From positions 1 through 56,382 of the forward strand of contig PHDA01000018.1 in the NCBI GenBank assembly GCA_002842465.1: 56,382 nt of DNA. The letters run 5' to 3'. Positions 41,959-50,672 of the stretch are shown one piece after another (within the stretch, counting starts at the first letter, position 1; every line of letters starts with the position of its first letter). The position numbers were made by a program, and so were the translations under genes. The DNA is from Bacteroidetes bacterium HGW-Bacteroidetes-7 (GTDB lineage Bacteria; Bacteroidota; Bacteroidia; Bacteroidales; UBA932). Under the pieces are notes generated by a model. It was not told where the DNA came from. It was given only the letters and a program-made list of their open reading frames with translations, and ran no database searches.

Positions 41959-43260
41959 ATGTTTAACCAAGAAAAATACATAAAGGAGATTGAGCACATT
42001 TTCAAACAATTTCCATCTTACCAGCAGGTTGGTTCAATTGCATACAAAGAGGGGCTTGAGACCATGAAAGAGTTTGACACTGTGCTTGGCCATCCTCATC
42101 GAAAATTCCCGGTAATACATATTGCCGGAACAAACGGAAAGGGGTCTGTATCCCATATGCTTGCCTCAGTATTCATGAAATTCGGTCTTAAAACGGCTCT
42201 ATATACTTCACCACATCTTTTGGATTTTCGGGAGAGAATAAAAGTGGACGGAAAGATGATCTCAAAAGAGGATGTTTATGAGTTTCTGACAATGCATAAA
42301 AGCTTAATGAACGACATAAAACCATCGTTCTTTGAGATTACCACTGCACTTGCCTTTGATTATTTTGCAAAACAGAAAGTTGATATTGCTGTTATTGAGA
42401 CAGGACTAGGCGGAAGACTCGATTCAACAAACATAGTCAGCCCCTGGCTAAGTATAATAACAAACATCGGACTTGACCACTGTGAGCAACTTGGCTCAAC
42501 AATAACTGCAATTGCGCTGGAAAAGGGGGGCATAATTAAGGATAATGTGCCTGTTGTGATTGGAGAGCATAATGTTACCACAAAAGATATATTTGAAAAA
42601 TTTGCAGCAGAGAGAGGATCAAAGATTCTTTTTTCAAAACTGTACAGATTCAAGGATATTAAGTTAAGTGATTACGAGCTCGATCTAAAAGGCGACTATC
42701 AGGTGAATAACTTGCGAACCACGCTTACTGCCCTATATGTGCTTTCTCAAAATCAGAGTTTTCTCTCTTTGGTGGGTAAAGGATGGAGTGATTATAATAT
42801 TAAAGAGGGTCTTAAAACAGCTGCAGCATCAACCGGGCTCAGAGGGAGGTGGGAGACACTGAATAAAAGGCCTTTGGTGATATGTGATACAGGTCATAAT
42901 GTTCATGGGTTGACAGTTGTCTTCTCTCAACTCAGAAAGCAAAGTTATTCAAGACTCTTTTCTATTATTGGTTTTGTTGCGGACAAAGACATTGAAAAGA
43001 TATTGGGACTTCTGCCGGTGTCGTCATATTTCTATTTTACTCAGGCGCAAATTCCAAGGGCTCTTGATGCAAAACTGCTTGCAAAAAGATGTAATTCGGT
43101 AGGATTACAAGGTGAGGTTGCCATTTCTGTAGTGGAGGCAATAAAGAAATTCAAGTCTGTTTGTAAAGAGGACGACCTTCTTTTCATTGGGGGAAGTACA
43201 TTTATTGTAGCTGAAGCGATAGAATTTTTTGAAAAAAACGAGAATTTTTTTGCAAAATAA
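41959..43260 (+). CDS. folC: Dihydrofolate/folylpolyglutamate synthase
   Basis: Adds glutamate to dihydropteroate and folates. 433 residues from ATG 41959; a TTG at 41932 is a weaker start. Mur-ligase fold: P-loop 'HIAGTNGKGSVSHML', 'TSPHLLDFRERI', 'VIETGLGGRLDSTN', 'ITNIGLDHCEQLG', and C-terminal 'CDTGHNVHGL'. It matches FolC rather than a Mur enzyme in length and motif wording. tRNA-Val follows 49 bases later. Confidence 0.95.
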   Translation: MFNQEKYIKEIEHIFKQFPSYQQVGSIAYKEGLETMKEFDTVLGHPHRKFPVIHIAGTNGKGSVSHMLASVFMKFGLKTALYTSPHLLDFRERIKVDGKMISKEDVYEFLTMHKSLMNDIKPSFFEITTALAFDYFAKQKVDIAVIETGLGGRLDSTNIVSPWLSIITNIGLDHCEQLGSTITAIALEKGGIIKDNVPVVIGEHNVTTKDIFEKFAAERGSKILFSKLYRFKDIKLSDYELDLKGDYQVNNLRTTLTALYVLSQNQSFLSLVGKGWSDYNIKEGLKTAAASTGLRGRWETLNKRPLVICDTGHNVHGLTVVFSQLRKQSYSRLFSIIGFVADKDIEKILGLLPVSSYFYFTQAQIPRALDAKLLAKRCNSVGLQGEVAISVVEAIKKFKSVCKEDDLLFIGGSTFIVAEAIEFFEKNENFFAK

Positions 43261-43279
43261 AAAAATGCAGATATCTTTG
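43249..43279 (+). promoter_or_regulatory. Consensus promoter of tRNA-Val
   Basis: TTTG (43249-43252), exactly 19 bases, then TATCTTTG (43272-43279): a textbook -33/-7 pair, overlapping the end of folC. Confidence 0.8.
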
Positions 43280-43309
43280 CACTCCCAATCGCAAGATAGG
43301 GTTTGAAAG

Positions 43310-43384
43310 GGGAGCATAGCTCAGTTGGTTTAGAGCATCTGCCTTACAAGCAGAGGGTCGGGGGTTCGACTCCCTCTGCTCCCA
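43310..43384 (+). tRNA. tRNA-Val (anticodon TAC)
   Basis: A 75-base cloverleaf: acceptor GGGAGCA/TGCTCCC, D-arm with AGCTCAGTTGG, anticodon stem TCTGC/GCAGA with loop CTTACAA (anticodon TAC), T-arm GGGGGTTCGACTCCC. CCA is not encoded. Confidence 0.96.
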
Positions 43385-43394
43385 CAAGAAAAAA

Positions 43395-43427
43395 GCGAGT
43401 ATCATTACGATATTCGCTTTTTTTTTT
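43395..43427 (+). terminator. Terminator after tRNA-Val
   Basis: Stem GCGAGTATC/GATATTCGC (one G-U), loop ATTAC, then ten T. On the opposite strand the A-run gives U-tract for the convergent lipoprotein gene too. Confidence 0.85.
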
Positions 43428-43434
43428 GCGTAAA

Positions 43435-44523
43435 TCAATTTGGTTCAGGCTGATTAACCCATGGACCGATTTTGAACGGACTTTTGGGAGAAAAATATAG
43501 ATCAACCATTTGGTCAATTATATCATGACCCCTTGCACTGTTGGTGAAGTACACAAGGTGACTTTTCTTTTGGGGAATAATTATAAACAGGGCTTTAAAG
43601 TTACCGTTATCACCCCAGTGAAATATAATATCACCAAATTCAGTATCCTTTTCAATTCCAACTCCCATAGCCCAGTAGATTGCACTATCACACTCTCTTG
43701 GTTTGCCTGAAAAACGAACAGCTTTTGTAACCGGTGAAAACATCTGCTGATGGGTCTCTTTCTTTAATCCTTTTCCCTCCATGAGTACATCCAGGAATTT
43801 TGAGTAGTCCCTTGCTGTTGTTCTTAGTGTATAAGCAGAGTTAGCTCTTGGATGACGCCCTTTACCCCGGTTCTCACCCTCTCTGGTAAATCCGTCAGCA
43901 GCCAGAGTATCGTACTCATCTTTCCATTCATAACTTGTATGATCCATTCTGAATGGAATAAATACCTCCTCTGTTGTCAACTGTTCAAGGCTCTTTCCGG
44001 TAACCTCTTCTACAGCTTTTTGCAGCAAATAATAACCCTCACCCGAATAGCTAAATGCAGAATCGGGTCGGAATTTAAATTTTACAATAGATGAAGGCCA
44101 CTCATCAGATGATGGCGATGTTGCCCAGTTAGGAAGCCCGGTTTTATGAGTCAAAACTGTTCTTGCGGTAATTTTTGAAGCCCATTCTCTATTTTCAAAC
44201 CTCTCAATACCTGTATACTTTGCAAGAGGTTTGTCAATATCAAAAACTCCTCTGTCTGCCAATAAAAACACAATATATGAGAAGATTGGTTTGCTTAGTG
44301 AAGCTGCCTGGAAAACAGAATTTTCATCTATTGATGCTACTATAGTGTCAGATTGCGAAAGTTCAAAAGAGATAAACTCTTTTTTGTTTCTAAAAGCAAC
44401 CTGAATCAGAGGAATTTTAGCTGAATCGGCAATTTCCGCTGTTGTTGGTTTAATATCATTTGTAGCCTTAGGAGCACATGAAAAGGTCACAGTTATTATT
44501 AAAAGCAAGGCAAATATTCGCAT
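43435..44523 (-). CDS. Serine beta-lactamase-like lipoprotein (class C/esterase family)
   Basis: A 362-residue exported lipoprotein (signal ending 'VTFSCAPK'). Beta-lactamase/transpeptidase fold: SxxK in 'AASLSKPIFSY' (nucleophile Ser), second motif 'YSGEGYYLLQK' (Tyr), and third motif 'HWGDNGNFKALF' in place of KTG. The HxG third box is typical of class C-like esterases and D-amino-acid peptidases rather than true beta-lactamases, so drug resistance should not be assumed. Probably peptide or ester hydrolysis in the periplasm. Divergent from the dCas12f locus. Confidence 0.85.
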   Translation of the reverse strand: MRIFALLLIITVTFSCAPKATNDIKPTTAEIADSAKIPLIQVAFRNKKEFISFELSQSDTIVASIDENSVFQAASLSKPIFSYIVFLLADRGVFDIDKPLAKYTGIERFENREWASKITARTVLTHKTGLPNWATSPSSDEWPSSIVKFKFRPDSAFSYSGEGYYLLQKAVEEVTGKSLEQLTTEEVFIPFRMDHTSYEWKDEYDTLAADGFTREGENRGKGRHPRANSAYTLRTTARDYSKFLDVLMEGKGLKKETHQQMFSPVTKAVRFSGKPRECDSAIYWAMGVGIEKDTEFGDIIFHWGDNGNFKALFIIIPQKKSHLVYFTNSARGHDIIDQMVDLYFSPKSPFKIGPWVNQPEPN

Positions 44524-44551
44524 TGTAAAAATTGGTTTAAATAGTTTAAAA

Positions 44552-44559
44552 CAAAATTA
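44552..44559 (-). promoter_or_regulatory. -7 box of the beta-lactamase-like gene
   Basis: Reads TAATTTTG on the minus strand (TAnnTTTG), 28 bases before its ATG. Confidence 0.45.
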
Positions 44560-44623
44560 ACAATTCAAACAGCTATTACAACACCCAAAAACTACACGTT
44601 TAAACTGTTTTCTTTTTTCAAGG

Positions 44624-44644
44624 AGGATATCCTGAATACATTTG
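44624..44644 (+). promoter_or_regulatory. Palindrome plus -7 box ahead of the candidate guide RNA
   Basis: A perfect 10-base palindrome AGGATATCCT (44624-44633) is followed 3 bases later by TACATTTG (44637-44644, fits TAnnTTTG). Transcription would begin near 44651, about 150 bases before the dCas12f ATG, leaving space for a separate RNA. The palindrome sits where an operator could control it. No protein frame starts in this stretch. Confidence 0.45.
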
Positions 44645-44650
44645 CTTCAT

Positions 44651-44790
44651 AAATAAGAAAGGAAATAAAACTCATTATAAGTTTTGGGGCAGCTGTATGT
44701 CCTTAATGTGAGGTGAAAGAGCACTCATAAACCAAATCGGATGCAGCGGTTAGTAATTAAGTACAATAGACAAATCTAATTTTGATTTAT
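44651..44790 (+). ncRNA. Candidate structured guide RNA/tracr-like RNA of the dCas12f locus
   Basis: The core 44686-44753 is about 48 percent G+C in surroundings near 30 percent and folds well. GCTGTAT-gt-CC (44692-44702) pairs with GGATGCAGC (44739-44747), enclosing a hairpin TGTGAG/CTCATA (44707-44712, 44724-44729). AACC (44730-44733) can pair with GGTT (44748-44751), crossing the outer stem as a pseudoknot. Cas12f tracr and TnpB omega RNAs are known for such pseudoknotted scaffolds. Downstream, 'CAATAGACAAAT' (44764-44775) resembles the 'AATAGACGAAT' core of a known Cas12f repeat. Boundaries and the guide segment are not determined; an ordinary structured leader is the alternative. Confidence 0.38.
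44777..44784 (+). promoter_or_regulatory. -7 box directly ahead of the dCas12f gene
   Basis: TAATTTTG (TAnnTTTG) 15 bases before the ATG at 44800. The predicted leader is about 9 bases, so the protein can be made independently of the upstream RNA. Confidence 0.4.
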
Positions 44791-44799
44791 AGATAGAAT

Positions 44800-45882
44800 A
44801 TGATCTTGACAAGAAAGATAGAGGTTGTCATTGACGAAAATGAGACAGAACTCAAAAGTGAATATTTAAAGCAGATTCATTCATGGGGTTATCTGGTGCG
44901 CAATGGCGCAAATGAACTTATTTCCTATTTATATAGTATCGACAGACTTAAGTATTATAAATTTATTACTGAAGATACTAAGATTGCGTTGGGTATAATT
45001 GGTGCAAAAGGGGATAGTATAAAAGAGGGCTCGGCACCATATGTTCTGCTTTCTGAAAGGCTGAAGGGACAAGTTCCAATGGATGTTGCCAATGCTTTAC
45101 AGCAAAATGTTACCAATAGCTATAAGGAGGTTAGAGGCAAAATTTTTAAAGGCATAGCCTCCCTAAAGTCATTCGGCAATATTCCGATTCCTTTTGGAGG
45201 GGGATCGTTAAGAAATCTCCAATATTCAGCCGATACAAATAGTTACCATTTTACACTATTTGGAATTCCCTTTGTAACATTGCTGGGAAGAGACAGAAGC
45301 AATAACAACTTTATACTAAATAGATGTCTTACAAACGAGATCAAAATTTGTACATCTGCACTTCAAATAAGTGAGAACAAGAGAAAGTTGTTTCTTTTGC
45401 TTAGTGTAGATATGCCTAAGGTTGAAATTTCATTGGATGAAGATAACTTTGTTGACGCTCATTTATCAGTAGAAACTCCAATTGTAGCTTTTTTTAGAAA
45501 TGAAAAGAGAGTGATAGGGAATAAGGAGGAGTATCTTCACAGGAGGATTCAGATTCAAAAAGCCTTAAAACGAGCTCAAGTCAACTCTGCATACACCAAT
45601 GGTGGCAGAGGAAGAAAAAGAAAAATCAAGGCCCTTGATAACTTCAGTGGCAAGGAGAAAGATTACATAAATACAAAGCTTCATACATACACAAGGTTAC
45701 TTATCGATTTTGCAGTTAAAAACCGATGTGGTACCATATATCTGATATCCCAAAGTCAAAAAGAGAAAGAGGTAAAAAGAAACTCTTTTTTGCTTAGAAA
45801 TTGGGGTTACTACGGCCTGAAGCAAAAATTGGCGTATAAGGCTAACTTATTCGGAATTAAAATAGTTGAGAAGGCGGGCTGA
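44800..45882 (+). CDS. Nuclease-dead, C-terminally truncated Cas12f/TnpB-family protein
   Basis: 360 residues. The central and C-terminal parts match Cas12f/OrfB proteins of Bacteroidales: 'SLKSFGNIPIPF' (121-132), 'LLGRDRSNNNFILNRCL' (161-177), bridge-helix region 'GGRGRKRKIKALD' (268-280), 'HTYTRLLIDFAVKN' (295-308), 'LLRNWGYYGLKQKLAYKA' (331-348). In active relatives RuvC-I reads 'GVDLGI..P'; here the aligned 'DAHLSVETP' has His 221 for Asp. RuvC-II Glu aligns with Ile 316 in 'GTIYLISQS'. The chain ends at 'GIKIVEKAG', just where 'TSQ.CS.CG' (zinc finger) and the RuvC-III Asp should follow; other frames past the stop do not restore them. So it should bind guide RNA and DNA but not cut. No tnpA, transposon ends or array nearby. 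154 bases before a SusC gene, same strand. Homology is my reading from memory of the family; the regulatory role is inferred. Confidence 0.8.
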   Translation: MILTRKIEVVIDENETELKSEYLKQIHSWGYLVRNGANELISYLYSIDRLKYYKFITEDTKIALGIIGAKGDSIKEGSAPYVLLSERLKGQVPMDVANALQQNVTNSYKEVRGKIFKGIASLKSFGNIPIPFGGGSLRNLQYSADTNSYHFTLFGIPFVTLLGRDRSNNNFILNRCLTNEIKICTSALQISENKRKLFLLLSVDMPKVEISLDEDNFVDAHLSVETPIVAFFRNEKRVIGNKEEYLHRRIQIQKALKRAQVNSAYTNGGRGRKRKIKALDNFSGKEKDYINTKLHTYTRLLIDFAVKNRCGTIYLISQSQKEKEVKRNSFLLRNWGYYGLKQKLAYKANLFGIKIVEKAG

Positions 45883-46036
45883 TTTAGTCCGGTTTATAGC
45901 TACATCTGTAATTCATTTAGAATACCAAATAACACTTTCAGTATTGCAATAGACTCTCTCACTGCCTTAAAGGCAGATGGTAGAGCCTCGTTTTTATAAA
46001 TTTGATTCTAAACATCTAAATACTTAACTAATTTCA
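45883..46036 (+). promoter_or_regulatory. SusC control region with two dyads and a -7 box lacking a -33 box
   Basis: Contains a perfect palindrome TATTGCAATA (45942-45951), a second perfect dyad CTGCCTTAAAGGCAG (45962-45976) followed by AGAGCCTCGTTTTT, and TAAATTTG (45997-46004, TAnnTTTG). The second dyad occupies the place where -33 TTTG should be (45974-45977 reads CAGA), so the promoter probably needs help. As RNA, the second dyad plus T5 could also end the dCas12f transcript. Any DNA-bound regulator, including the dCas12f complex, could act here. Confidence 0.5.
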
Positions 46037-49000
46037 ATGAAAAAAATTTGTTTAACAATCGCAACATTTTTACTTGTTGCATGTCATGTTCTGATGGCTC
46101 AGAATATGAAAATTTCCGGTACGGTTACCGAGACAGGAACCGGCGCCCCCCTTCCGTTTGTTACCATAATGGTAAAAGGAACATCAATAGGAACTACTTC
46201 TGCTGAAGACGGTTCTTACACAATCAACGCTCCTGCAGACGGAATGTTGGTTTTTAGCTTTATCGGCTATACTCCCCTTGAGCTGCCGATTAATAGTCGC
46301 ACAGCATTGGATGCCAAATTAACCCCGGATGCGATAAATCTGGATGATGTAATTGTGGTTGCATATCAGACAGTCAAAAAAGCATCTTTTACAGGTTCGG
46401 CTTCATCAATCAAACAAGAACAGATTGATAGAATACTGTCAACCAATGTAACAAAGTCACTTGCTGGAGCTGTTCCGGGAGTACAGGTAGTAGGAGGCAC
46501 AGGTCAACCTGGATCGTCTGCATCAATAAGAATTCGTGGTATTGGATCAGTTAATGCATCAAGTGCCCCTCTCTATGTAGTTGATGGTGCTGCTTACGAT
46601 GGAGACATCAATGCCATACCTACCGATGACATCGAGTCAATAAGCATTCTTAAGGATGCTGCAGCATCTGCTCTTTACGGAGCCCGTGGTGCGAACGGTG
46701 TTATTATGGTTACAACTAAAAAGGGTAGAGTGGGTAAGTCCACCGTAAGTGCAAAGATTAACATAGGTGCAAGTTCGCGCGCTTTTCAAGAATATGAAAG
46801 AATTGACGCTAAACAATACTATGAGCTAATGTGGGAAGGTTGGAGAAATGCCCGTGTCATTGCAGGTGGGATGACTCCTGCAGCTGCAGCTGCTCAGGCC
46901 AGCGGAGCCACAGCAAATGGTATCGTTGCCAAACTTGGAGGTTACAATCCGTTTGACGTTGCTAACGACCAGGTTATTGGCTTAGATGGCAAACTTAATC
47001 CATCTGCTAAATTGATGTATCAGGATGACTGGATTAAAGAACTTTCTCAAACAGGCATCAGACAGGATTACAACGTGAATCTTAGTGGGGGTGTTGATCA
47101 GACTACTTATTACCTTTCATTGGGTTATATTAATGAAAAAGGTCATGTCAAATGGTCTAGTTTTGATCGTTTTACAGGCCGGATAGGTCTTTCTACAAGA
47201 GTTAATAAATGGTTTAAAGTTGACGGTAACATTTCAGGATCTTCAGCTAATACAGCCAATTTTCTTGCAAATGGAACGTTTACTTCCAACCCTTTCTATT
47301 TCGGAAGAATGATGGGACCAATCTATCCAATTTATCAGAGAAATATTGATGGTTCAATCAAAATGATGGCCGATGGTTCACCTGCTTATGATATGGGAGG
47401 TGGAAACACAGTATACACATGGGCTGGTCATACAAGACCATATGCACCAAACTCAAACCTTATGCTTACTCTTCCTCTGGATGACAGGTCAAACACAAGG
47501 AACCAGTTGTCTGCAAGAATGTCTGCCGAAATTACAATTTTGAAAGATCTTGTATTCAAGGTTTCAGGAAGTACAGATATGACGAACACTCTGACTACCA
47601 CATACCAAAACAATAAATTTGGTGATGCAGGGGTAACTCTTACAGGCGCCGGAGTGTCTGGCAGATCAACTAAGCAGTTCACAGGATCTCAATCTTATAC
47701 TTTCAACCAAATTCTTACCTATAACAAAATGTTTGGATCTCATAATTTAAATATTTTATTAGGACATGAGAATTATCAGTGGGACAGAAAGTTAGTTTCT
47801 GCTACTAGAACTAACTTCAAGATTGACTCAAAAGAGTTGGTTGCAGGTTCTATAGCAGAAGGGTCAACTTCTTATTCAGATATTTACACTCTTGAAGGAT
47901 ACTTTGCAAACTTAAACTACTCTTTTGCAAACAAATATTTCCTTTCTGGATCTTATCGTTATGACGGAACTTCCAGATTTTCTCCAGATTCCCGCTGGGG
48001 AGGATTCTGGTCAGTTGGTGCTTCATGGAGAGCCAAAGCAGAAACCTTTATGTCAACAGTAAACTGGATTGATGACCTGAGAGTAAAAGCTTCTTATGGT
48101 GAACAAGGAAATGACGATATCGGAAACTACTACGGATATCAGAGTTTATTCACGATTTTAGGATACAATAACGGTAACTTTAACGGGGCATTCTATTCAC
48201 AATTAGCAAACAACGAACTTAAGTGGGAGAAAAACGGCAACTTTAACTTAGGAGTTGACTTTGCATTCTTCAACCGCCTTAGAGGTCAAATAGAGTACTT
48301 TATCAGAAAGTCTGACAACCTCCTGTTCCAGGTGCCTCTTCCTCAATCGGCCGGTCTGCATGTTAAGTGGGACAACATAGGAAGTATGAAGAATAATGGT
48401 TTTGAATTCCAGCTTGCAGCAGATATTGTAAAAACCAAGAACTTCGCTTGGACACTTGATATTAATGGTACCCACTATAAAAATGTGATTACAAAAATGC
48501 CTATAGGTCCTGACGGACAATATCAGGAAATTATAACTGGAACTGCTGCAACCGGAACAAGGAAACTATCTGTTGGCCATTCAATATTTGATTACTGGTT
48601 AAGAGAGTGGGCAGGTGTTGACCCTATAGATGGAAGTGCACTCTATTACAAAGACATAAAAGACTCAGAAGGTATTATTACAGGTAGAGAAACAACAAAA
48701 GACCAAAATGCTGGTTCTAATTACTACATGGGTTCATCAATCCCTAATCTTTACGGAGGTATAACCAACACTTTCAAATTCTATGGATTTGACCTTGCCG
48801 TATTTCTTGTTTACCAATTGGGTGGCAAAATGTATGATACAAACTATGCCTCATTAATGCATCCCGGAACTTTCGGAAGTCATATGCATATCGATATGCT
48901 AAATAGGTGGACATCTGACAACACAAATACAAATGTACCTAGACTTCAGAATGCATATGCTGCACCTAATGCAGCGTCAAGCCGTTGGTTAACGTCTGCA

Positions 49001-49222
49001 AGTTATCTTTCTCTAAGGAATATTACCCTTGGGTATAATGTACCTTCACACTTACTTAAGCCGCTTAATATTTCTTCAGTAAGAGTGTTTGCAACAGGCG
49101 ATAACCTCGCACTTTTTGCCAAAAGAAAAGGTATGGACCCACAGCAGACATTTGAAGGGTCTGCAGATCATACCTATATTCCTAACAAGGTTATATCACT
49201 AGGACTTAATATTACATTTTAA
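46037..49222 (+). CDS. SusC/RagA-family TonB-linked outer-membrane transporter
   Basis: Imports glycans or peptides captured by its SusD partner. 1061 residues: signal peptide 'CLTIATFLLVACHVLMA', a carboxypeptidase-regulatory-like domain ('ISGTVTETGTGAPLPFVTI'), the TonB-box region 'NLDDVIVVAYQTVKKASFTG', plug with 'RIRGIGSVNASSAPLYVVDG' and 'ISILKDAAASALYGARGANGVI', and a large barrel ending 'VISLGLNITF'. There is no STN (secretin/TonB N-terminal) domain, so it is not the kind that signals to an anti-sigma factor. susD follows after 10 bases. Ligand unknown; no glycosidase is adjacent. Confidence 0.97.
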   Translation: MKKICLTIATFLLVACHVLMAQNMKISGTVTETGTGAPLPFVTIMVKGTSIGTTSAEDGSYTINAPADGMLVFSFIGYTPLELPINSRTALDAKLTPDAINLDDVIVVAYQTVKKASFTGSASSIKQEQIDRILSTNVTKSLAGAVPGVQVVGGTGQPGSSASIRIRGIGSVNASSAPLYVVDGAAYDGDINAIPTDDIESISILKDAAASALYGARGANGVIMVTTKKGRVGKSTVSAKINIGASSRAFQEYERIDAKQYYELMWEGWRNARVIAGGMTPAAAAAQASGATANGIVAKLGGYNPFDVANDQVIGLDGKLNPSAKLMYQDDWIKELSQTGIRQDYNVNLSGGVDQTTYYLSLGYINEKGHVKWSSFDRFTGRIGLSTRVNKWFKVDGNISGSSANTANFLANGTFTSNPFYFGRMMGPIYPIYQRNIDGSIKMMADGSPAYDMGGGNTVYTWAGHTRPYAPNSNLMLTLPLDDRSNTRNQLSARMSAEITILKDLVFKVSGSTDMTNTLTTTYQNNKFGDAGVTLTGAGVSGRSTKQFTGSQSYTFNQILTYNKMFGSHNLNILLGHENYQWDRKLVSATRTNFKIDSKELVAGSIAEGSTSYSDIYTLEGYFANLNYSFANKYFLSGSYRYDGTSRFSPDSRWGGFWSVGASWRAKAETFMSTVNWIDDLRVKASYGEQGNDDIGNYYGYQSLFTILGYNNGNFNGAFYSQLANNELKWEKNGNFNLGVDFAFFNRLRGQIEYFIRKSDNLLFQVPLPQSAGLHVKWDNIGSMKNNGFEFQLAADIVKTKNFAWTLDINGTHYKNVITKMPIGPDGQYQEIITGTAATGTRKLSVGHSIFDYWLREWAGVDPIDGSALYYKDIKDSEGIITGRETTKDQNAGSNYYMGSSIPNLYGGITNTFKFYGFDLAVFLVYQLGGKMYDTNYASLMHPGTFGSHMHIDMLNRWTSDNTNTNVPRLQNAYAAPNAASSRWLTSASYLSLRNITLGYNVPSHLLKPLNISSVRVFATGDNLALFAKRKGMDPQQTFEGSADHTYIPNKVISLGLNITF

Positions 49223-49232
49223 TAAGAAAACC

Positions 49233-50672
49233 ATGAAAAAAAATATACTAGTATTATTATTACTGGCATCACTGGGTATAGTCTCATGTTCAAAAGATTA
49301 TTTGGAGACTGCCCCTACATCAAGCGTTACAGAGGCTGACCTTTTCAAAACCCTCACTGGTGCGCAAACACTTCTTGAAGGTATTCATCGTTTTGGGTAC
49401 GCTTCCGGAAATGAGCACGACAGATTTGGGCACAAATCAATTGATTATGCATTAGATTGCCTTGGTGAGGACTTCTATTCTACTGAAAGAGGTTACGGAT
49501 GGTTTGTGGCGTGGTACCAATACCTTGTGCATAGAAACGTTAATGCCGGTAATTGCCTCTACCCTTGGGATTTCTACTATGACATTATCAATAATGCAAA
49601 CATCCTGCTAGCTAATATTGATAACATAACAGTTTTCGAATCAGAGATTCCAAGAAGAAACAATATCAAGGCTCAAGCACTAGTTTACAGAGCTTTATCA
49701 CACTATCAGCTTGTGCAAATGTATGCTGATAGGTATAATTGGATAACAAAGAGTAATACACAACTTGGAATTCCCATAAGACTCACTCCAACGCAAGAGC
49801 CACTTGCAAGAGCAACAGTTGAGGAGGTTTATGCTCAGATTAAGATAGATTTGACAGATGCAATAGCTTTGCTTAACGGAAATACTGCATCAAGACTTAA
49901 TATCTCACACATCCATCTCAATACAGCCAATGCGATTGCTGCAAGGGTTGCGCTAACAACAGGTGACTGGGATAATGCCGTAACATATGCAAGAGCGGCA
50001 AGAACAGGTACATCTCTTGAGGTCAATTATAATTATGGATTTAATAAGGCATCAACCGAATGGATCTGGGGTGCTGTGCTAATAGATGAGCAGCAAACCA
50101 CCTATAGATCATTCTTCTCTCACATTGACCCCGTTTTTCAGGGATATGCCACTTTGGGTAACCATAAGCTTATTAGTACTGTTGTTTTCGACTTTATGAG
50201 CGCAACAGATACTCGTAAAGAGGCATTTAAAACTACAGCTGGAAAACCTAGAGTTGGCTGGAAATTCACCGGAGGTGGAAAAATGACCAATGACTATTTG
50301 TATATTAAAGCAGGCGAAATGTATCTGATTGAAGCAGAGGCCGAAGCAAGAAGAGGTGGAATTGCAGATGCACAGAACGTACTTTTCACTTTAATCAACA
50401 AACGTGATCCCGCTTACGTTAAGACTACATTAACAGGAGATGGCCTAATAGGTCACATTCTTATGCACCGTCGTGCTGACCTTTGGGGTGAAGGACAAAG
50501 ATTCTTTGATATCAAAAGGCTTAATATTGCTCTTGATAGAAGAGATCTGGGACACAACTCAGCTCTGTGGAATGCTGCATCATATTTTGAACCAGGTGAT
50601 AAAAATTTTGTATTCCTGATTCCTCAACAAGAGATTGATTCAAACCCACTAATGGTACAGAACCCGCTCTAA
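49233..50672 (+). CDS. SusD/RagB-family surface lipoprotein
   Basis: Surface lid that binds substrate for the SusC transporter. 479 residues: lipoprotein signal 'LLLASLGIVSCSKDYLE', SusD N-terminal motif 'KDYLETAPTSSVTEADLF', TPR-like helices ('NNIKAQALVYRALSHYQLVQMYADRY') and the C-terminal RagB region 'HILMHRRADLWGEGQRFFDIKRL'. 10 bases after susC in the same operon, followed by a strong terminator. Somewhat shorter than many SusD proteins but complete. Confidence 0.96.
   Translation: MKKNILVLLLLASLGIVSCSKDYLETAPTSSVTEADLFKTLTGAQTLLEGIHRFGYASGNEHDRFGHKSIDYALDCLGEDFYSTERGYGWFVAWYQYLVHRNVNAGNCLYPWDFYYDIINNANILLANIDNITVFESEIPRRNNIKAQALVYRALSHYQLVQMYADRYNWITKSNTQLGIPIRLTPTQEPLARATVEEVYAQIKIDLTDAIALLNGNTASRLNISHIHLNTANAIAARVALTTGDWDNAVTYARAARTGTSLEVNYNYGFNKASTEWIWGAVLIDEQQTTYRSFFSHIDPVFQGYATLGNHKLISTVVFDFMSATDTRKEAFKTTAGKPRVGWKFTGGGKMTNDYLYIKAGEMYLIEAEAEARRGGIADAQNVLFTLINKRDPAYVKTTLTGDGLIGHILMHRRADLWGEGQRFFDIKRLNIALDRRDLGHNSALWNAASYFEPGDKNFVFLIPQQEIDSNPLMVQNPL

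Follow-up and report, generated by a model that had tools for sequence, protein, structure and literature searches.

The window analysed here, a stretch of 56,382 nucleotides from contig PHDA01000018.1 of Bacteroidetes bacterium HGW-Bacteroidetes-7, encodes a nuclease-dead Cas12f (dCas12f) that is directly followed, in the same direction, by a susC and a susD gene (Table 1). This confirms the placement of a dead Cas12f just upstream of SusCD reported in a first-pass annotation of the same DNA. That annotation missed a predicted guide-RNA (gRNA) gene, which we place in the 5' leader of dcas12f. The neighbours of dcas12f are ordinary chromosomal genes and no prophage was seen by eye. A sigma profile search found no ECF sigma factor among the window ORFs of at least 90 amino acids.

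Table 1. Features of the dcas12f-SusCD locus (window positions) and the evidence for each.
Feature	Position	Strand	Evidence
Candidate -7 box (TAnnTTTG) TACATTTG of a promoter for the gRNA/dcas12f transcript	44637..44644	+	consensus in PMC7366714
Predicted guide-RNA scaffold, tracr-like part fused to a repeat-like 3' end (...GGATGCAGC)	44686..44747	+	conservation, covariation
Predicted guide GGTTAGTAATTAAGTAC; eight of nine clade members share its first 14 nt	44748..44764	+	susC leader matches at -13
dCas12f, nuclease-dead Cas12f, 360 aa	44800..45882	+	ORF, profile, alignment, AlphaFold/Foldseek, dN/dS
His221 codon, RuvC-I Asp position	45460..45462	+	alignment to active Cas12f 9nzo/9nzr
Ile316 codon, RuvC-II Glu position	45745..45747	+	alignment to active Cas12f 9nzo/9nzr
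Leader of linked susC, carries TAAATTTG box, without guide site	45883..46036	+	closest match has 5 mismatches in 14 nt; no match at -13
Linked susC	46037..49222	+	TIGR04056, 789.8 bits; body like the susC of the G143 target locus
Linked susD	49233..50672	+	86% identical to the susD at the G143 target locus

The dcas12f reading frame has no internal stop and its product matches the PADLOC Cas12f model with an E-value of 1.1e-49. Residues 4-356 align to PDB entry 9n9c, 'Nuclease-deactivated Cas12f' (E 5.4e-64), and the same entry is the top Foldseek match (TM 0.79/0.82) of an AlphaFold model with a mean pLDDT of 82.8. In both sequence and structure searches the nearest solved relatives are Cas12f proteins, with TnpB ranking lower. 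No Pfam match was obtained for the protein, and searches of annotated phage and plasmid records (2 and 17, respectively) gave matches of 24-34% identity, none of which covered 80%. His221 and Ile316 occupy the positions of the RuvC-I Asp and RuvC-II Glu, and the chain stops before the zinc finger and RuvC-III. Since the solved 9n9c protein is equally short (365 aa) and has the same end point, the absence of these parts is common to an already solved structure. The RuvC-I column lacks an acid in all nine members of the window clade and holds one in only 3 of the 103 rows of the whole tree set (Asp in L050, Glu in L221 and L228); an acid at the RuvC-II column is found in 0/103 rows and thus in none of the clade. 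L050 (Rhinopithecimicrobium faecis) is an ECF-linked dCas12f, without the RuvC-II acid. The dN/dS of the window gene is 0.062 against L019 and 0.069 against L020 (0.061 between L019 and L020), values to be read with a dS of about 1, which is near saturation. The window protein is thus a Cas12f homologue without the RuvC-I and RuvC-II acids, with a frame under purifying selection. The first-pass annotation had described the intact frame, both substitutions and the early end of the chain, and had taken the loss of cutting as selected rather than as decay; the fold prediction, the survey of homologues and the dN/dS bear it out on each of these points. It is also right that no CRISPR array accompanies the gene (none was found in 42801-47900) and, with the acids absent as well, the locus lacks both the array and the active nuclease that characterize type V-F CRISPR-Cas.

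The best 80 of 301 loci from named genomes were examined together with viral loci, and 120 of 181 proteins were listed, 27 of which were put in one set with the window. An ECF gene lies just 5' of dCas12f in 66 of the 80 loci, is absent in 13, and the remaining locus is cut by a contig edge where the ECF would lie. The ECF beside the dCas12f of a Pedobacter locus (L069) has a single PDB match, the RpoE chain of 9n9q (E 6.8e-38), which identifies the ECF-linked loci as dCas12f-sigmaE systems. PDB entries 9n9c, 9n9m, 9n9o and 9n9q represent RNA-guided transcription by such systems, and the known dCas12f-sigmaE relatives activate transcription. In a quick maximum-likelihood tree of 103 rows (midpoint-rooted, no outgroup; 22 of the 23 viral loci, the fragment L231 being omitted) the window forms a clade with L019-L026 (nine rows, support 100), grouped with 17 viral rows and with L027 and L032 (support 98). 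None of these nine rows has an adjacent ECF, and none lies beside L027 or L032. The clade stands apart from all 66 ECF-linked rows, whose own clade also holds five viral rows and three others. The window genome (92.4% complete) has 15 ECF loci over the region-4 cut-off and two further region-2 loci. These 17 sigma loci score at most 46 bits with a profile of the linked ECFs, compared to 110-190 bits for 14 held-out linked ECFs, hence no dCas12f-partner-type ECF is present among them. The first-pass annotation had left two options for the sigma partner, elsewhere in the genome or not used; these scores speak against the first. Membership in the sigma-linked activator family, which it had also suggested, finds no support in the position of the clade or in the genome search.

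In the dcas12f 5' leaders of all nine clade members a predicted guide-RNA scaffold is conserved. Over its three helices 96.7% of the alignment cells are paired, compared to 29-49% when the partners are slid, and helix 3 shows compensatory changes from U-A to C-G in four sequences and from G-C to A-U in two. None of 500 shuffles equalled the scaffold in paired cells, in double-change cells or in covariation score, although the number of pairs with double changes was not above that of the shuffles (228/500 as high). Single-sequence folds of the scaffold were not better than shuffles (z -0.55 for the window) and Rfam gave no match. A TAnnTTTG box, the -7 consensus according to PMC7366714, precedes the scaffold by 39-52 nt in five of the nine members (the window, L019, L020, L021 and L026) and not in L022-L025. 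The scaffold ends in GGATGCAGC, or in GCAGATGCAGC in L022-L025. The CRISPR arrays of several viral relatives and of L032 have a period of 65-66 nt and repeats that end in ATACAGC, ATGCAGC or ATACAAC, and this likeness places the start of the guide at GGTTAGTAATTAAG, position 44748 of the window. L026 differs from the other eight members in one of these 14 bases, and the bases that follow vary. A reading in which the guide follows GGTTAGTAATTAAG and is AATAGACAAATCTAATTTTG, a sequence containing a reversed -7 box, gave no second match in the genome; it was dropped because flavobacterial scaffolds and the relatives' CRISPR repeat ends put the guide start at GGTTAG. Production of the guide RNA and its binding by dCas12f are thus predictions from sequence.

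Two variants of the locus were seen within the clade. Genome G122 has a second dCas12f (L021, 2526-3608) with the same 14-nt guide; its locus lacks SusCD, and the ORF that follows (145 aa) resembles by eye a MarR-type regulator. In L022-L025 an inverted repeat lies between susD and the gRNA (CCACATAAGAG...CTCTTATGTGG in L022 and L023, similar in L024 and L025), perhaps a terminator separating the susD and gRNA units.

A match to the dCas12f protein was found in ten genomes, and the guide was sought in the eight of the same genus (G110 and G185 being the other two). Its first 11 bases occur 28 times in these eight genomes, including nine guide loci, and a reversed control occurs 24 times. As this count is not above the control, the case rests on placement: of the 19 matches outside guide loci, six are spaced exactly 13 bp from the ATG of a downstream susC, one per genome (G111, G122, G143, G168, G180 and G186). 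These six susC loci and their orthologue in the window genome follow gdhA, and korAB precedes gdhA in six of the seven, the contig of G143 ending first (gene names by eye from translations). In the window genome, the 17-nt guide with up to three mismatches has nine non-self matches (seven for the reversed control), two of which are at -13 of a susC: the orthologue on contig C19 carries GGTTAGTAAATAAG, with one mismatch at position 10, in the seed, and a second susC on contig C26 has a two-mismatch site. For this genome 14 of the 18 TIGR04056 matches were read, including all 10 over the cut-off. In G064, whose guide is GGTTAGTAATTTAGGTTTG, a 19-nt search with up to three mismatches returned the guide locus alone, and a one-mismatch seed site lies at another susC (L185, on its contig C19). 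Among 26 susC leaders the guide is perfect in three, and none of 5000 letter shuffles of the guide is perfect in any. The 26 leaders come from 30 susC loci, of which L163, L170 and L171 start inside the gene and L180, read separately, has four mismatches at best; 41 further susC matches (71 in all) are without a locus. The flank of the target sites on the gene side reads TTTT, and TTTTA in the case of C26. A leader motif about 13 nt before the susC ATG, TTACTAACCAAAA, recurs genus-wide (e.g., L148, 7980-8010), and is perfect over 11 nt in four genomes without a detected dCas12f (G133, G214, G048 and G209). The motif is thus not maintained by the guide, which would rather read a pre-existing element.

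The leader of the linked susC itself has no comparable site. Against the guide it shows five mismatches of 14 in the window, G122 and G143, four in G180, and three in G186, G111 and G168, where the first two guide bases are wrong. An exception is L026 in G064, whose linked susC has a two-mismatch site for its own guide and whose linked operon itself belongs to the target family (54-55% susC identity). With this exception, the guide fits a homologous susC elsewhere and spares the linked copy, a trait shared with TldR systems. The proposal of the first-pass annotation, an RNA-guided regulator of the adjacent SusCD genes, therefore holds for the predicted guide RNA and the tie to SusCD, but not for the adjacent operon as the target, since the matching site at -13 belongs to a susC in trans.

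The two kinds of SusCD loci have also exchanged their content. The linked SusC and SusD of the window share 85% and 86% identity with their counterparts at the G143 target locus, compared to 44% and 37% with the linked pair of G143 and 39% and 33% with the target pair of the window genome itself. The leader and the N-terminal part go with the locus and the SusCD body with the allele; past susD the sequence is again that of the locus (89.6% over 183 bp to the linked locus of G143). The loci compared were window 46037-50672, L150 2134-6758 and L019 2177-6934, which represent dCas12f-linked and gdhA-linked positions. This is the one clear exchange among the genomes compared, and on its basis the two loci may be interchangeable expression sites for SusCD bodies.

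The geometry of the site bears on the sign of regulation. TAnnTTTG boxes end 48-110 nt before the target susC ATG, and three relatives and C26 also have an upstream TTTG whose distance would suit a -33 box. The guide site (-14 to -30) is downstream of the boxes and thus within the predicted transcribed leader, and its predicted TAM side faces the gene; this placement favours repression over initiation. The constant T-rich flank that adjoins the site may be a mere part of the leader motif. By analogy with dCas12a, the strand targeted here is not the best one for blocking elongation.

We therefore consider it likely, judging from these sequence comparisons, that dCas12f is an RNA-guided repressor that silences a rival core SusCD in trans. 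A single conserved guide RNA would be made from the 5' leader of dcas12f itself and bound by dCas12f, and the complex would bind the DNA of the trans susC leader from the T-rich flank (TTTT) on the gene side. Positioned downstream of the start site, it would block RNA polymerase and keep the rival core SusCD off, and the adjacent SusCD, with a leader without the site, would stay free. The outcome would be a choice between two interchangeable SusCD expression sites and a swap of the surface receptor pair, and selection may have acted on switching between receptor pairs. Against the repressor stand the seed mismatch (position 10) in the best site of the window genome and an 11-mer count that stays within the scale of the reversed control. 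L026/G064 also fits poorly, as its linked two-mismatch site leaves no clean escape. The occurrence of the leader motif in genomes without a detected dCas12f, the second copy L021 with no SusCD nearby, the mixed covariation result and the strand targeted likewise count against it.

Among the alternatives, it is rather unlikely that silencing is post-transcriptional, with the guide pairing to the susC mRNA leader and dCas12f merely stabilising or delivering the RNA. The guide is indeed antisense to the mRNA just upstream of the start codon, and antisense RNAs of the DonS type against susC homologues are known (PMC7366714), yet DNA binding is seen in a relative (9n9m, a complex of dCas12f, gRNA and DNA) and the constant T-rich flank, with the reservation made above, corresponds to the need of a DNA-binding Cas12f. 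Activation of either operon, taken together, is unlikely. For the trans SusCD operons that carry the site it is in itself improbable: the guide does match their leaders and the dCas12f-sigmaE relatives are activators, but the site lies 13 bp before the ATG, downstream of the boxes and with its TAM side toward the gene, so that an R-loop-determined start site would come to lie within the gene or be directed away from it, and the 17 sigma loci include no partner. We give still less credence to a relic without regulatory role, whose guide would match a widespread susC leader motif through common descent or composition. The genus-wide motif and the match numbers would fit a relic; the dN/dS of 0.06, a 14-nt guide kept in eight of nine members while the following bases vary, the failure of all 5000 shuffles to match as well, and the same -13 position in six relatives and on C19 and C26 speak against it. 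Least probable of all is RNA-guided activation of the adjacent SusCD with an ECF sigma factor in trans, the view of the first-pass annotation, for which the family likeness to the dCas12f of 9n9c-9n9q, the match of the 9n9q RpoE chain to the Pedobacter ECF, the adjoining susC and the 15 ECFs of the genome can be cited, and against which stand the linked leader without a guide site, the low scores of all 17 sigma loci and a clade outside the ECF-linked one.

A repressor of this kind would combine elements of several known systems. It shares with dCas12f-sigmaE a homologous dead Cas12f of the same truncated length and gRNA scaffold elements that look alike by eye and give weak nhmmer matches, but it belongs to a different lineage without a linked or partner-type sigma factor, its predicted gRNA lies 5' of dcas12f instead of 3' as in the flavobacterial loci, and its site falls within the predicted transcribed leader, the TAM side being oriented to the gene. 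Several of the sigma-linked loci (L066, L069, L089, L092, L097 and L098) have a series of complete gRNA copies with differing guides downstream of dCas12f, and some Sphingobacterium sigma-linked loci keep CRISPR-like arrays. The sigma-type guide of L092/L098 matched itself and one two-mismatch site in G300, and that of L084/L090 itself and one one-mismatch site. When 55 guides were searched within their own loci, the six matches comprised palindromes or guide-to-guide pairs and one match with two mismatches in L089 (10329).

The nearest lineage in the tree comprises viral dead Cas12f proteins with the same kind of repeat 3' end. Viral contigs with a dead Cas12f (no RuvC-II acid) and arrays are L209 (5680-5984), L211-L214, L219, L223, L226, L229 and L230, and L032 (7198-7366) likewise has an array of 65-66-nt period. 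It is as if these viruses ran a natural CRISPRi. The viral systems have retained CRISPR arrays; in the window clade there is a single fixed guide. In function, the closest parallel is the TldR found with a prophage FliC, as described in PMC13418256: there too, an effector with a dead RuvC is encoded next to the gene of a surface protein, and its guide matches a rival homologue elsewhere. The same text reports a 6-nt seed with tolerated mismatches for flagellin TldR, and TldRs that bind inside fliC ORFs. The window protein differs in being of Cas12f and not TnpB lineage, in its SusCD instead of flagellin, and in the lack of a prophage (by eye). DonS-type RNAs of PULs likewise are complementary to susC and have a negative effect (predicted for the window), but in PMC7366714 they are cis-encoded antisense RNAs with no Cas-like protein, unlike the window system.

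Whether this sigma-free dead Cas12f, a sister of the viral ones that carry CRISPR arrays, represents a new class of natural RNA-guided repressor, in which a hard-wired guide recognizes the genus-wide susC leader motif and so picks the active one among several exchangeable SusCD expression sites, as a surface-receptor switch evolved parallel to TldR/flagellin switching, appears to us evenly balanced on the comparisons made here. None of the papers listed describes a sigma-free dCas12f that represses susC; the primary dCas12f-sigma papers lie outside that list, so that a prior mention there is possible. The system offers an exact predicted guide together with an exact predicted target. SusCD-type nutrient receptors can also serve as phage receptors. 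If the repressor model is true, dead Cas12f would have been recruited for gene regulation in two lineages with opposite effects, activation with a sigma factor in one and sigma-free repression in the other, and the TldR logic of silencing the rival of a linked surface gene would have arisen independently for the nutrient receptors of Bacteroidales.
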